Assembly: GCF_023487995.1 (NCBI RefSeq)
Contig: NZ_JAMFKN010000003.1
Span: 1 to 64,000 of the forward strand
From: Thermohalobaculum sediminis
GTDB lineage: Bacteria; Pseudomonadota; Alphaproteobacteria; Rhodobacterales; Rhodobacteraceae
DNA: 64,000 nt
Direction: 5' to 3'
Shown: positions 3,072 through 8,315 of the stretch, piece after piece
Position numbering within the stretch: the stretch's first letter is position 1
Layout: every line of letters starts with the position of its first letter
The notes under the pieces: model-generated
Told to the model about the DNA's origin: nothing
The model's input: the letters and a program-made list of their open reading frames with translations, nothing else
The model's database searches: none
Program-made: the position numbers and the translations under genes

Positions 3072-4898
3072 CTAGGCCGTCGTCGGGCGCCACCAGCGGG
3101 CAGTCCGGCTCGACGGGTCGGCCAGCAGCGCCGCGGCTTCGCCCTCCTCAGCCACGCGGCCCGCTTCGAGCCAGATCACGTGATCCGCGAGCGCGAGCGC
3201 CGCAGGCCGATGCGAGACGAGAACGACCGTGGCCTCGCACAGTTCGTGCCGCAGCCCGGCCAGCACCTCGGCCTCGGCCGCCGCATCAAGCGCGTTCGTC
3301 GCTTCGTCCAGCATCACCAGCTGCGGGCGGCGCAGGATCGCGCGGGCAAGGCGCAGCCGCTGGCGCTCGCCGCCCGAGAAGCGCGTCGCATCCGGGCCCA
3401 CCTGCGTGTCGAGCCCCTCGGGCAGCCCCGCCAGCAGCCCGCCCGCCCCCACGGCGTTCAGCGCCGCGCGCATCGCCGCCTCGTCGGCCTGCCCGCGCGC
3501 GCCCCAGGCAAGGTTCGCGCGCAGCGTCGGCTCGATCAGGAACGGCTCCTGCCCGACATAGGCGAGCACCTCGGCAAGCCCCGCGCGCAAGGCCGCGTCG
3601 GCAGGCGCCCCGTCGACGGTCAGAACCCCGCGCTCCGGCCGCGCGAGCCCCGATAGCAGGTCGCACAGCGTGGTCTTGCCCGAGCCGGAGTCCCCAGCAA
3701 CGAGCGTGACGCGGCCCGCCGGCACGTGGCAGACGATGCCGCTCAGCAGCACGCTCCCGCCCGCCGTGAAGCTGACGCCTTCGAGCGCCAGCGCCGGCGG
3801 GCGCGTGACCGGGCGCGGATCCACCACCGGCTCGGCCCGTGCACCGGCCAGCGCCGCTTCCAATCTGCCCTCGGCCGCCGCATAGGCCGCCGCCGCGCTC
3901 GCCATGCCCTGCAACGCGTGTTGCAGGGTCTGGAAGGGGCCGACGATCCGCACGAGGATCAGCAACATCGCGATCAGCGCCTCGGGCCCCGCATCGGTCG
4001 CGACAACCCCCGCGAGCACCACCAGCGCCGCGGCGACCGCGACCGCCGTCTGCATTGCGATGCTGCCCAGCGCGAGGTCCATGCGGATCGCGGCTGAGCG
4101 CTCGGCGACCCGCTCGGCCGCGGCGACCGAGCGCGCGCCATAGGCCTCGGACAGCCGGTGCGCGCGGGCGGGCTTGAGCCCGGCGAGGAACCGCCCCGTC
4201 TGGCCGTAGAGCCCCGCATCCGTGGCGCTCAATTCGGCCCCCAACCGCCCGGCGCGCCGGCGCAACGGGCGCAGCGCTAGGAACAGCGCCGCGCCAATCG
4301 CGGCCGCCACCAGCGTCATCACGGGCGCCACAACCATCGCGATGGCGCCGTACACGGCCAGCGAGACGGCGGCGAGCAGCCCGCTCCAGAACCCCCAGAC
4401 GAAGCCCTCGGCCCGGCCCAGGTCGATGCTCAGCGAATGCCCCGCCGCCTCGCGGTCGAGGCCCGCCACCGCGTGCCACGGCGCCGCCGCCAGCGCCGTG
4501 AAGAAGTGCCGCCGCAGGGCCACGACGAAGCCCATCGCCAGGCCCAGCATCGAACGGGCGCGTGCAAGATCGACCGCCGCGCGGAGCGCCACGACCCCGA
4601 GGAATGCCCCGAGCCCCAGCGCAAGCTGCCCGTCCCGTCGGGTCACGCCCAGCGCCTCGAAGGCCTGGGACGCGACCTGCCCGGCCCGGCCCGCGGCGTC
4701 GGGTCCGCCCAGGACCAGCGAGATCAGGGGCACCAGCAACAGCACCCCCGCCCCCTCGAGCAGCGCGGCGCCCAGCACCAGCGCTGCCGTGCGCCACAGC
4801 CCCGCGCCCGCGTGCGCGCGAAACAGCCTGAACAGCGCGAGCTGCGCCTGCCTGCCGGCCGCACCGTCCGCGGCACGGGGCTCGGCGGGCTCGCTCAT
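3072..4898 (-). CDS. ABC exporter (TM-NBD half transporter) of the RiPP cluster
   Basis: Predicted to export the mature peptide across the inner membrane as a homodimer. Residues about 25-330 form a type IV exporter membrane domain with several hydrophobic spans. The NBD has Walker A GDSGSGKTT, the signature SGGERQR, Walker B LVMLDEAT and an H-loop SHR. No C39 peptidase domain is present, which fits removal of the leader by the separate B2 protein. It is the last gene of the operon; its ATG overlaps the stop of the kinase-like gene by 4 bp (ATGA). The 608-residue length is normal for lasso D-type transporters. The frame is open further upstream, but that part lies inside the kinase gene. Confidence 0.9.
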   Translation of the reverse strand: MSEPAEPRAADGAAGRQAQLALFRLFRAHAGAGLWRTAALVLGAALLEGAGVLLLVPLISLVLGGPDAAGRAGQVASQAFEALGVTRRDGQLALGLGAFLGVVALRAAVDLARARSMLGLAMGFVVALRRHFFTALAAAPWHAVAGLDREAAGHSLSIDLGRAEGFVWGFWSGLLAAVSLAVYGAIAMVVAPVMTLVAAAIGAALFLALRPLRRRAGRLGAELSATDAGLYGQTGRFLAGLKPARAHRLSEAYGARSVAAAERVAERSAAIRMDLALGSIAMQTAVAVAAALVVLAGVVATDAGPEALIAMLLILVRIVGPFQTLQHALQGMASAAAAYAAAEGRLEAALAGARAEPVVDPRPVTRPPALALEGVSFTAGGSVLLSGIVCHVPAGRVTLVAGDSGSGKTTLCDLLSGLARPERGVLTVDGAPADAALRAGLAEVLAYVGQEPFLIEPTLRANLAWGARGQADEAAMRAALNAVGAGGLLAGLPEGLDTQVGPDATRFSGGERQRLRLARAILRRPQLVMLDEATNALDAAAEAEVLAGLRHELCEATVVLVSHRPAALALADHVIWLEAGRVAEEGEAAALLADPSSRTARWWRPTTA

Positions 4899-5890
4899 CG
4901 CGCGCGCCCCTGCGCGACGTCGCGCGCCCCCGGGGGGCCATCGCCCGACCAGCGCGCGCGCAACAGCCCGGCCACCGCCTCGGACGCCGCGTGATCCCAT
5001 GGCCGGACGAGGCGCGCCACCGGCACCGCGCCCGCCAGCGAGGCGACCTCGACGAACTCCTCGCCCCGCCGGCCAAAGGCCTCGGCGAACTGCGGCCGGT
5101 AGACGTTCTCGCCGATCGCCCGCACCGCCTCGAGCAGCGCCAGCGGCTCGATCCGCGGCACCTCTCCCGCATCCGACGCCGCGAGGATCAGGATCTCCGC
5201 CAGCTCGTGCGGGCGCTCCTCGGCGGCGCGGGGATTGGCCAGGTAGAACTTGTCCACCCGGCTCGCGACCCGCGGCCCGGCCGCGCCCGCCAGCCCCGCC
5301 GCGTCGAGCGCGTCGCGCCATAACTTGAAGCTCGTCCCCGACGGATGGATCGCGAAGCGCCCCGCCCCGCCCGCCGGCCACAGCGCCACCGTGTCGTCGC
5401 CCAGGATCGGGCAGCCGGCCACCCCAAGCCGCGCGGCCAGGGTCGACTTGCCGGCGCCGCTGCGGCCGAGGATCAGCGTCGCCCGCCCGCCATGCGCCAC
5501 CGAGGCGCCATGCAGCACCAGCGCACCGCGCTGGAACAGCGCAAGGCCCATCGCCGTCCCCAGCGTGTAGAGCGCGACCATCCCCGGATCGGCGCCCGCA
5601 TCGGGCGCCACGCGGATGTCACGCCCGTCGCGCACCCAGAACGCGCCCACGCCCGCGACCTCGAACGCGCCGCCACCCTCGGTCGGGTCGGCCTCGATCA
5701 CCTCGGTATCCCGCGGCTCGCGGCCCGCGCGCGCCGCCGCGCGGCGCACGACCGCGGCTGCAGCGGGATCGTGCCGGATGCGGATGTCGGCCGGCGCGGC
5801 GCATGGCGAGCGGCGGAACTCCGGCACCTCGAAGTCCGACTGGATCTCGAGGCCGTGCGCGCGATAGCGGAAGCCGCCCGCGCCGGTCAT
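4895..5890 (-). CDS. HPr kinase-like protein (RiPP-associated serine kinase)
   Basis: Resembles the HprK-related P-loop kinases of RiPP and exosortase loci. In paeninodin-type clusters such a kinase phosphorylates the C-terminal Ser of the precursor. Walker A GRSGAGKSTLAARL is followed by GDDTVAL and an IHPSG segment; the N-terminal part starts YRAHGLEIQSDFEVPEF as in related proteins. I chose the ATG at 5890 because homology begins there (331 aa). A GTG at 6073 in the same frame overlaps the ATP-grasp stop by 8 bp and would add 61 low-complexity residues; coupling makes that start possible. The precursor at 8190 ends in Asp-Ser, which fits the proposed substrate. Kinase activity is inferred. 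Confidence 0.8.
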   Translation of the reverse strand: MTGAGGFRYRAHGLEIQSDFEVPEFRRSPCAAPADIRIRHDPAAAAVVRRAAARAGREPRDTEVIEADPTEGGGAFEVAGVGAFWVRDGRDIRVAPDAGADPGMVALYTLGTAMGLALFQRGALVLHGASVAHGGRATLILGRSGAGKSTLAARLGVAGCPILGDDTVALWPAGGAGRFAIHPSGTSFKLWRDALDAAGLAGAAGPRVASRVDKFYLANPRAAEERPHELAEILILAASDAGEVPRIEPLALLEAVRAIGENVYRPQFAEAFGRRGEEFVEVASLAGAVPVARLVRPWDHAASEAVAGLLRARWSGDGPPGARDVAQGRAR

Positions 5891-6065
5891 GCCGCGCCGC
5901 CCCGCGCCCGTCCCGTCCGCCGCCACCCCAGGGCAGCCCGGCGCGATCCTGCCATCGTCCTCGACACCGCTTGTCTCTCCCCTCGCGCTCCGGCTGTTTT
6001 CCCCCAGCGCCGCGCCGATGTCGAGCAGCCACTCGCGCCCGTGCTGCGGCGCGCCGTGGCGTCCG

Positions 6066-7346
6066 CTAGCCACCCCGCCTGTGCAGCCATGCCTCGACCA
6101 CCGGCCCCAGCGCGCTCTCCGAGCCCGGGATGCCGGTCACGGTCTGCTGGTAGTAGATCGACGTGCCGATGTTGCCCTCCAGGACGACCGGCCCGGAGGG
6201 GGAGATCACCACGTCCCAGGCGACCACCGGCACGCCGCAGTCCAGCATCCGGTGGGCAGCGCTGACGGCGCCGACCGACGCCTCCCAGAACGGCAGTGGG
6301 GCGTCGGGCAGATCGAGGCCCGCGACCGGCGCCAGCCAGTCGAGATGCGACTCCTGCTGGATCTGCGTCGTGATCGGGCGGCCCGAGCCGGGATCGATCA
6401 CGGTGATGCCCATCACCCGCTCCGCCCCCTCGGGAACGAGCGAATACCAGAGCGTCGCATAGGCGAGGGTGACCGCCCCCTCCGGGGCGCGCCCGGTGAT
6501 CATTCGCAGCACCGGAGGAAGCACGAGGTCGGCACGCGCCAGCGCCGGATGCGCCGGGACCATCGGCTGCAGCAGCATCGCGCCATGCCGTGTAGCGAGG
6601 TCTGCGACCCTCGCGCCCAGCGCCTTTCGCTCCAGCGTCAGGGCGGCGCCGGAGGCGCGCTGCCATCTCCCTTCCTCTCGGGGCACCCATGCCTCGAGCC
6701 CCTGCGCGCGGAAGGCCGTGACGGGCTTGAGCACGACCCCGTCGCAGGCCGCCGCAAGCGCGTCGCCAATATCTCCGGGCGCACCCGGCTGGACGACGGC
6801 CAGTGTCGCCGGCACCGGAACGCCCCGCTCGGCCGCGAGCCGCGCGAAGGCCACCTTGTCGTCGCAGAGCGCCCGCGCCGCCGTCGAGGCCAGCGCGCGG
6901 TTGAGGTGACAGAACTCGGCATGGAGGAACCAGCGGTTCGCCTCGGCCGGCCGGTCGGCGGGGACCCGGTAGGCAAACTGCTCGAGCGGCGTCATCCCGC
7001 TCCGCATCGCGCTGCGCCAGAGCGCGAAGGCGCCGGACCATCCCCGCCCGCCGCGCTGCGCAAGGATGCGCGCGGGCCTCAGCGTCATGACCGGCCAGCC
7101 CGCCGCCTGCCCGACGGCGACGAGGACGCGCAGGAAAGGCCCGAACCGCGCTCGCCGCGCCACCCATGCGGCATGCCGGATCTGCGCAGCCCTGTCTGCC
7201 CGCCGACTGCCCGCGGGCGGCCATGGCGCGCCCTCGCCAAGGACGTCGCGATAGCGCGCGGGGTCGAGGACGCGCCGCAGCCTCGCGCGCAGGCCCGCTG
7301 TCATTCGCGCCGGACCCACGGAAATTTCGCGGGGCATCCTCGCCAC
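6066..7346 (-). CDS. ATP-grasp protein (sugar-transfer-associated type) in the RiPP operon
   Basis: An ATP-grasp fold enzyme that would activate a carboxylate as acyl-phosphate and join it to an amine or other nucleophile. The central lysine segment is DGVVLKPV and the C-terminal metal-binding segment is VVAWDVVISPSGPVVLEGN, so the catalytic part looks intact. The N-terminal region (FALWRSAMRSGMTPLEQFAYR) matches the family annotated as sugar-transfer-associated ATP-grasp. It lies between the B2 peptidase (27 bp downstream of it) and the kinase, where a lasso cyclase gene would be expected. It may therefore modify the peptide, for example by ligating an amino acid or closing a ring, but no substrate can be read from the sequence. 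426 aa. Confidence 0.8.
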   Translation of the reverse strand: MARMPREISVGPARMTAGLRARLRRVLDPARYRDVLGEGAPWPPAGSRRADRAAQIRHAAWVARRARFGPFLRVLVAVGQAAGWPVMTLRPARILAQRGGRGWSGAFALWRSAMRSGMTPLEQFAYRVPADRPAEANRWFLHAEFCHLNRALASTAARALCDDKVAFARLAAERGVPVPATLAVVQPGAPGDIGDALAAACDGVVLKPVTAFRAQGLEAWVPREEGRWQRASGAALTLERKALGARVADLATRHGAMLLQPMVPAHPALARADLVLPPVLRMITGRAPEGAVTLAYATLWYSLVPEGAERVMGITVIDPGSGRPITTQIQQESHLDWLAPVAGLDLPDAPLPFWEASVGAVSAAHRMLDCGVPVVAWDVVISPSGPVVLEGNIGTSIYYQQTVTGIPGSESALGPVVEAWLHRRGG

Positions 7347-7373
7347 CCCGAATGGCGGCGGTGTCCCGGATGT

Positions 7374-7850
7374 TCAGCGATACCGTCCGACAACGACGTA
7401 ATCCGCGAGGTCCGGAAGCGCGCCGGTCACCACGACATCCCCCACGGTGGTCCAGGCATGAGCGCCGAGCCCCGCCCGGACCCTGTCCTGCCCACCCTTG
7501 CGGCGCAGCCCGAAATGCACCGTCGATGCGATCCCGCGCCGGCGCAGCATCCGCCGCGCGGCAAGCGCGCGCTGCAGGCAGACGGCACGAAAACCGACCC
7601 GACGGCCCACCGCCTCGATCGCGCGCCCCACCGCGACCGCGGCCTGGACCGCCTCGGAGGCAGGCGCCGCGGCTTCCGCCGCTCCCGGCTCGCAGCGACG
7701 CAGGTCCAGCAGACGAAAGTACCACCGCTCCGGCAAGGCGGTCAGGGCCGTGCACAGTGCGATCTCGAGGAGGGCCTCGAACAGGATCGGTCGCGCCAGG
7801 CGGGCCGCCGGAAGGCGGTGCCTCGGGGGTCCCAGAGGCGCGATCATCAT
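7374..7850 (-). CDS. Lasso-type B2 leader peptidase (transglutaminase-like)
   Basis: Predicted cysteine protease that removes the leader from the precursor peptide with help from the PqqD-like partner. The lasso B2 core is visible: Cys91 in FRAVCLQRAL, then RRGIASTVHFGLRR, then His131 in GAHAWTTVGDVVV, with Asp138 a candidate third residue. A hydrophobic segment with FEALLEIALCTALTALP lies near the N-terminus, as in other B2 proteins. I start at the ATG at 7850, which overlaps the stop of the B1 gene (ATGATG); 158 aa is the usual length. B2 proteins almost always occur with an asparagine-synthetase-like cyclase, which is missing here. Confidence 0.88.
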   Translation of the reverse strand: MMIAPLGPPRHRLPAARLARPILFEALLEIALCTALTALPERWYFRLLDLRRCEPGAAEAAAPASEAVQAAVAVGRAIEAVGRRVGFRAVCLQRALAARRMLRRRGIASTVHFGLRRKGGQDRVRAGLGAHAWTTVGDVVVTGALPDLADYVVVGRYR

Positions 7851-8134
7851 CGGGGAGGTTCGATCATCTTCTGATCGAGCAGCGACTCGGCGAACGCGAT
7901 GACCTCGGCGCGGCACACCGTCTCCTCGACGTCGTATTTCTGCGTCAGCAGCGCGACGATATCGTCGATGCTCCGCTCGCCGTCGATCATGTCCCAGATG
8001 TCGCGGGCCGTGTCCTCGAGCATGAGATACTGGCCCGCATCGATGTTCATGAAGATCAAAGCCTGATCGAGCGGCGCCTGAATCACCCCGGGCGCACGTC
8101 TCAGGACAGTATCACGTTGCATTACGCTGGACAT
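7847..8134 (-). CDS. PqqD-like RiPP recognition protein (lasso B1)
   Basis: A small winged-helix RRE protein that should bind the precursor leader and deliver it to the B2 peptidase. The sequence VLRRAPGVIQAPLDQALIFMNIDAGQYLMLEDTARDIW followed by a DDIVALLTQKYDV helix is typical of PqqD/B1 proteins; 95 aa. The ATG at 8134 follows a G-rich tract; a GTG at 8164 and an ATG at 8122 are alternatives. It comes 55 bp after the precursor gene and overlaps B2 by 4 bp. It is not evidence for PQQ synthesis: no pqqB, C or E is present. Confidence 0.88.
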   Translation of the reverse strand: MSSVMQRDTVLRRAPGVIQAPLDQALIFMNIDAGQYLMLEDTARDIWDMIDGERSIDDIVALLTQKYDVEETVCRAEVIAFAESLLDQKMIEPPR

Positions 8135-8159
8135 TCCCCCCGGATTCCGGCTCGACCTC

Positions 8160-8176
8160 GGCACCCGAAGGCTGCC
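8160..8176 (-). promoter_or_regulatory. Hairpin between precursor and B1 genes
   Basis: On the minus strand GGCAGCC-TTC-GGGTGCC can fold with one G-G mismatch. It has no T-run. Hairpins in this position often protect precursor mRNA or lower read-through into the maturation genes; here that role is only inferred. Confidence 0.35.
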
Positions 8177-8189
8177 GGCCCAAGACGGA

Positions 8190-8315
8190 TCAGGAGTCGC
8201 ACTTCTGCGGAATGTTCACCCCCGACGGCGTGCACCCCGGCAGAGTGGGATCCTCTGTCGCCTTGATCGGCAAGGACTTGATCACGGGCGGGGTCCACTT
8301 CACTCGATTACTCAT
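8190..8315 (-). CDS. RiPP precursor peptide, 41 aa, paeninodin-like leader, core ending CDS
   Basis: A short gene heading the RiPP operon. The leader reads MSNRVKWTPPVIKSLPIKATE. Trp7, Pro10, Ile12, Leu15, Ile17 and Thr20 have the same spacing as Tyr, Pro, Leu, Leu, Val and the -2 Thr in the paeninodin leader (Y..P.L..L.V..T). Cleavage two residues after the Thr would leave a 20-residue core running from Asp22 to Ser41, DPTLPGCTPS then GVNIPQKCDS. The core has Cys28 and Cys39, five prolines (counting Pro23), and ends Asp-Ser like paeninodin. There is no Asp/Glu at core positions 7-9 (Cys, Thr, Pro) and no Gly/Ala/Ser/Cys at position 1, so a classical isopeptide ring is unlikely. GGAG lies 10 nt before the ATG. 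The tail ends 55 bp before the B1 start. Confidence 0.85.
   Translation of the reverse strand: MSNRVKWTPPVIKSLPIKATEDPTLPGCTPSGVNIPQKCDS

Follow-up and report, generated by a model that had tools for sequence, protein, structure and literature searches.

A lasso-type RiPP operon lacking a lasso cyclase in Thermohalobaculum sediminis and its possible linear phosphorylated product

The Linear Polyphosphorylated Peptides (LPP) were described from the lpp cluster of Paenibacillus alginolyticus (Popov et al. 2026, PMC13381572). LPP clusters encode a RiPP recognition element (RRE), an HprK-like kinase, an NTP-transferase, an MsbA-like exporter and a signal-peptidase-like leader peptidase, and have no cyclase (PMC13381572). 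Their product intermediates were shown experimentally to be linear and polyphosphorylated, and the clusters are described as restricted to Bacillota (PMC13381572). Kinases of lasso clusters use the linear precursor as substrate, and their sole requirement is a C-terminal Ser (PMC8498205). For BsfK and LppK, the phosphorylated residue is a different one, core Ser3 (PMC10368454, PMC13381572).

The window, a stretch of 64,000 nucleotides from Thermohalobaculum sediminis, contains a six-gene operon that combines lasso-type leader processing with an HprK-like kinase and an ATP-grasp ligase (Table 1). All six genes lie on the minus strand, as the earlier note had placed them. The B2 start overlaps the B1 end, and the overlap of the exporter and kinase genes at the stop is 4 bases. 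A GGAG was seen by eye 10 nt 5′ of the precursor ATG, and a promoter and terminator scan 5′ of the precursor found none. B1 scored 61 bits against the NCBIfam model lasso_PqqD_Bac, under its 80-bit cut-off, and exceeded the Pfam cut-off. B2 scored 65.9 bits against lasso_biosyn_B2 (cut-off 33), and the alignment shows its conserved Cys and the His of an AHAW motif. The kinase matches Hpr_kinase_C and HprK_rel_A, both under cut-off.

Table 1. Features of the operon and their positions in the window.
Feature	Coordinates	Strand	Remarks
Precursor gene	8190..8315	-	41 aa MSNRVKWTPPVIKSLPIKATEDPTLPGCTPSGVNIPQKCDS; homologue in G001
B1, PqqD-like RiPP recognition element	7847..8134	-	PF05402 2.9e-18; start picked among in-frame ATGs
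B2, transglutaminase-fold leader peptidase	7374..7850	-	PF13471 2.3e-21; NF033537 above cut-off
ATP-grasp ligase	6066..7346	-	PF14397 2.6e-18; invariant K164, K207, D378, E390, N392
HprK-like peptide kinase	4895..5890	-	P-loop GRSGAGKST, DD motif
MsbA-like ABC exporter, without C39 peptidase	3072..4898	-	PF00005
Gap, ATP-grasp to kinase	5891..6065	-	position of the cyclase start in G003

The precursor leader, WTPPVIKSLPIKATE, contains a WxxP motif, KWTPPV, and a Thr at position −2 of the predicted cut site (KATE↓DP), so that both features of the leader test, [Y/W]xxPx[hydrophobic] and T(−2), are present. Cleavage at this site would yield a 20-residue core, DPTLPGCTPSGVNIPQKCDS, with two Cys residues (Cys7 and Cys18) and a C-terminal Ser, neither of which the earlier note mentions. 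The calculated monoisotopic mass of this core in linear form is 2027.929 Da, which becomes 2107.896 Da with one phosphate and 2105.880 Da with phosphate and disulfide. Its positions 7-9 hold neither Asp nor Glu, in agreement with the earlier note, which had described the core as lacking the acceptor. Since the acceptor is missing, a standard lasso ring would be impossible from the T(−2) site even given a cyclase. The C-terminal Ser is the target of most lasso kinases. It is found in every precursor used here, although this is partly a matter of selection, since ending in Ser was a filter of the precursor search. Of the features of a lasso cluster, the operon thus has the B1 RRE and the B2 leader peptidase, and lacks the macrolactam cyclase and an Asp or Glu at core position 7, 8 or 9.

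Searches with PF00733, two single lasso cyclases and a 4-sequence cyclase alignment detected no lasso cyclase, either within the window or anywhere in the assembled genome (G000). The absence that had been noted within the window therefore extends to the whole assembly, and the genome-wide check for an unlinked cyclase that had been proposed found none. The assembly (4.31 Mb, 43 contigs, 100% complete) is a draft, so a gene could be missed. PF00733 gave a single full-length match, at C32:72694, about 64 kb past the operon on the same contig. This gene was rejected as a lasso cyclase; it scores 976 bits against TIGR03104 (cut-off 570), is an N-acetylglutaminylglutamine amidotransferase and adjoins its synthetase. 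A match on C11 (L002) is a frame of 402 aa that is unrelated, shows no lasso features and looks MnmA-like by eye, and no cyclase query aligned at two further weak PF00733 matches (L003 and L004). A second strong PqqD match, at C32:491 kb, belongs to a PQQ cluster. The gap between the ATP-grasp and kinase genes held no cyclase remnant above noise.

A cyclase acting in trans has a precedent in the same genus. In the genome G001, leuC and leuD flank a second precursor (...KAWTPPTLHVIPLSSTAAKSSNHSEQTQQNGRFS, also given as ...SSTAAKSSNHSEQTQQNGRFS), which has Glu8 and ends in Ser, together with a complete 637-aa cyclase (L028 6752-8860; C31:152.7-154.9 kb). Since this pair was not seen to be accompanied by a B1 or B2 of its own, the main operon of G001 presumably supplies both. 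Given such a split system, a lasso might also be made in T. sediminis by a trans cyclase missed in the draft assembly, from the window precursor or from another unlinked one. We consider this very improbable, since leuC and leuD are adjacent in G000 with nothing between them, all three kinds of cyclase search were negative and the local core is without an acceptor.

Among 195 relatives, the full operon type is confined to genomes of the same genus. At the homologous place, G001 carries the precursor, B1, B2, ATP-grasp, kinase and exporter genes in unchanged order, without a local cyclase and with shared HAD and methyltransferase genes on one flank. In G004, the neighbouring methyltransferase gene is present and the operon is absent. 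Between G000 and G001, the kinases are 63-64% and the exporters 71% identical, the ATP-grasp, B2 and precursor sequences share about 30-47% identity, and the two precursors match by tblastn at 5e-5. As judged from this homologous operon, the gene set is more than a chance assembly. The locus in G003 encodes a precursor, B1, B2, an NTP-transferase, the ATP-grasp and the start of a cyclase (MTQLICGILRLDG...), after which the contig ends. The G003 precursor (L014 6359-6517), upstream of this cyclase start at the contig end, has a Cys pair in the pattern PGC...C...S and no Asp or Glu at positions 7-9. From the ATP-grasp-then-cyclase order in G003, a cyclase probably once stood between the ATP-grasp and kinase genes, and its loss from the G000/G001 line left no remnant that could be detected.

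If this loss was recent, the operon could be a decaying lasso operon, in which the product of the remaining genes is not under selection. The cyclase start at the same locus of G003, the precursor and cyclase placed elsewhere in G001 and the rapid divergence of the ATP-grasp, B2 and precursor genes from those of G001 are all consistent with decay. However, all six reading frames are intact, catalytic residues are kept across the operon enzymes, and the gap is free of a cyclase remnant. The approximate dN/dS values between G000 and G001 are 0.24 for the exporter, 0.35 for the kinase, 0.37 for B1, 0.54 for B2 and 0.63 for the ATP-grasp, with dS near saturation. These values are not attributable to the G000 branch alone, since G001 may run its operon with the trans cyclase; between the two genomes they indicate purifying selection on the kinase and exporter, and the low values for the exporter, kinase and B1 argue against decay. 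In a tree of the ATP-grasp, which does not resolve the placement of the window sequence, its end branch (1.12) is not clearly longer than those of G001 (1.35) and G003 (1.09). The overall pattern, a conserved chassis with fast-changing precursor and tailoring genes, speaks against decay, which we regard as unlikely.

The earlier note had the ATP-grasp gene standing in the place of the cyclase. This does not hold, since in 11 clusters, one of them the same-genus locus in G003, a gene of the same family is the neighbour of a lasso cyclase (L014, L015, L016, L053, L056, L058, L063, L170, L171, L178 and L180; kinase census of named genomes and of the order of the window genome). In the clusters of G533 (L170) and G273 (L171), of the same family, the genes are exporter, NTP-transferase, kinase, precursor, B1, B2, ATP-grasp and cyclase. 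An ATP-grasp without a local cyclase occurs in this census only in the window and G001 operons. Because its relatives adjoin a cyclase in these clusters and at the same locus in G003, the ATP-grasp seems to be the older accessory and the cyclase the gene that was lost. By gene neighbourhood, the enzyme belongs to kinase-type lasso clusters as an accessory. We found no report in the open-access literature that links PF14397 to lasso clusters, and as far as that literature shows, this recurrent partnership is undescribed. Two further observations concern these genes. In G155 (L017 8869-12689), three adjacent genes are related to the window ATP-grasp, and their surroundings are free of lasso genes. 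A sulfotransferase-fold gene, a possible tailoring step, adjoins the kinase in many of the clusters L015, L016, L053, L056, L058, L169 and L174.

The window ATP-grasp retains the catalytic Lys, Asp, Glu and Asn. Its AF2 model (pLDDT 81.8) has a fold like those of D-Ala-D-Ala ligase (Ddl), RimK, LysX and ArgX (Z 14-16); PsnB is among the Foldseek matches, together with many other ATP-grasp ligases, and the sole Pfam match is PF14397. In 7 of the 9 cores read from cyclase-bearing ATP-grasp clusters, there is no acidic residue besides the predicted lasso acceptor, and the peptide of Sphingomonas sp. QA11 (L058), GKYRTVTEFTSTTGPAS, has one acidic residue. Since the only acid of these seven cores is the acceptor, the ATP-grasp there would need to act on the carboxylate of the C-terminus or on an acid from outside the peptide, and RimK-like addition at the C-terminus is our preferred guess. 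The intact ligase fold and the match to PsnB would also fit an enzyme that replaces the cyclase and introduces a graspetide-like crosslink into the core, between Asp1 or Asp19 and a Thr, Ser or Lys, and the core offers D1, D19, T3, T8, S10 and K17 for this purpose. The coexistence of its relatives with a lasso cyclase in the 11 clusters argues against such a replacement, as do the seven cores in which no side-chain carboxylate is left for a second crosslink. PF14397 is also not a family to which graspetide synthetases are known to be assigned. We therefore give the crosslink little credence.

Cyclase-less clusters with B1, B2 and an HprK-like kinase occur in two further genomes, both without an ATP-grasp among the listed genes. 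L070, from an actinobacterial MAG (Marmoricola), comprises an exporter, an NTP-transferase, a precursor (...SLRATSDIDIGIGIHIPFPALGS), B2, a kinase and B1, and the MAG has no PF00733 match. L181, from G496 of the same family as the window genome, comprises a precursor (...ESVTKFYWSWTKIAPWCDPSYS), B1, B2 and a kinase, and no cyclase was found in that genome. Both precursors lack the acceptor and end in Ser. An Asp or Glu at core positions 7-9 occurs in 0/3 precursors from cyclase-free genomes versus 18/21 from cyclase-bearing ones (Fisher p = 0.01), in a small set of hand-picked precursors read by the T(−2) rule, where three cyclase-bearing precursors are also without it. L169 was dropped because its contig carries cyclase-like matches at a distance of about 13 kb. 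L082, L089, L123 and L174 have no cyclase in the fetched flanks, yet no fitting precursor was present or the genome holds other asparagine-synthetase-like genes, and they were not counted. Elsewhere in G000, an apparent polysaccharide locus (L201 5104-7565; C32:118.1-120.6 kb) encodes an HprK-like kinase, a weak PqqD-like frame and NTP_transf_5; it resembles the uncharacterised HPr-rel-A system, and PqqD-like and NTP_transf_5 matches co-occur again in G001. A strong NTP_transf_5 gene also lies beside sugar-nucleotide genes (L200 8263-9729; C2:54.5 kb), with B1, B2 and the kinase absent nearby.

On balance, we lean towards a lasso-derived operon that lost its cyclase and still works, with a linear phosphorylated RiPP as its product. 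This reading starts from the gene content, the absence of a cyclase from the assembly, the acceptor-less core and the conserved catalytic residues, from which we infer each chemical step and the order of the steps. B1 would bind the KWTPPV motif of the leader and present the precursor, and the HprK-like kinase would phosphorylate Ser41 (core Ser20) of the linear precursor, a site assigned by analogy. B2 would cut the leader after the penultimate Thr (ATE↓DPTL...) and free the 20-residue core. The ATP-grasp may turn a carboxylate into an amide or ester, most likely at the C-terminus or by adding an amino acid in the manner of RimK; of all the steps, this target is the least certain. Secretion would be the task of the ABC exporter, and Cys7 and Cys18 would probably be joined in a disulfide outside the cytoplasm. 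The best reading of the candidate product is thus a linear, C-terminally Ser-phosphorylated and probably disulfide-closed peptide.

The earlier proposal that lasso leader processing is reused for another product stands in part: reuse without a lasso cyclase is upheld, and the product is probably not a lasso. The RiPP type is not wholly new, because a cyclase-less combination of RRE, HprK-like kinase and exporter with a linear phosphorylated product is published for Bacillota (PMC13381572). More speculatively, cyclase-less linear phosphopeptide RiPPs processed by B2 may form a family that spans at least Alphaproteobacteria and Actinobacteria and descends from lasso operons on more than one occasion. 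In some members, a PF14397 ATP-grasp would ligate a group to the C-terminus, and in one congener of T. sediminis a local precursor and a distant precursor-cyclase pair would share the machinery; we hold this broader picture to be possible but somewhat doubtful. The operon suggests that lasso folding can be dispensed with: the enzymes for leader recognition and cleavage, the kinase and the exporter seem to function in the absence of a cyclase, and to do so in lineages remote from the Bacillota for which such a system has been described. A further pointer is to a so far unstudied tailoring enzyme of the ATP-grasp type, present in at least 11 lasso clusters.

Among known systems, graspetides share with the operon an ATP-grasp ligase within a RiPP operon and the general fold of that enzyme (PsnB and the microviridin ligases). 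Their ligases are not known to belong to PF14397, and the relatives of the window enzyme coexist with lasso cyclases. The lasso clusters with an ATP-grasp (G533/L170, G273/L171 and Sphingomonas sp. QA11/L058) have the same ATP-grasp family (about 20-31% identity), B1 and the kinase, and L170 and L171 also share B2 and the exporter. Unlike the operon, they contain a cyclase, the cores read have Asp or Glu at position 8 or 9, and L170 and L171 encode an NTP-transferase in addition. The paeninodin-type clusters and the proteobacterial kinase lasso clusters (PadeK, ThcoK and SyanK) resemble the operon in B1, B2, the HprK-like kinase, the ABC exporter, the C-terminal Ser and T(−2), and differ by the cyclase and the ring acceptor, both absent in the window.

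LPP clusters are alike in the discrete RRE, the HprK-like kinase, the MsbA-like exporter, the [Y/W]xxP leader and the lack of a macrolactam cyclase, and a linear phosphorylated product is presumed for the window. However, an archaeal-type signal peptidase (SpI-like) cuts the LPP leader, whereas the operon has B2, and TIGR02228, the model for archaeal-type signal peptidases, has no match in G000. The NTP-transferase is clustered in LPP and absent from the operon; all PF14907 matches of the genome lie outside the operon, at C2:54 kb and C32:119 kb. The LPP leader motif YxxPxVLxHQxIxFETxxS is absent from the window leader, whose motif has a Trp. The operon further differs in its extra PF14397 ATP-grasp, its Ser-ending precursor and its alphaproteobacterial host. 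By these sequence comparisons, it is analogous to LPP and not a member of that family.
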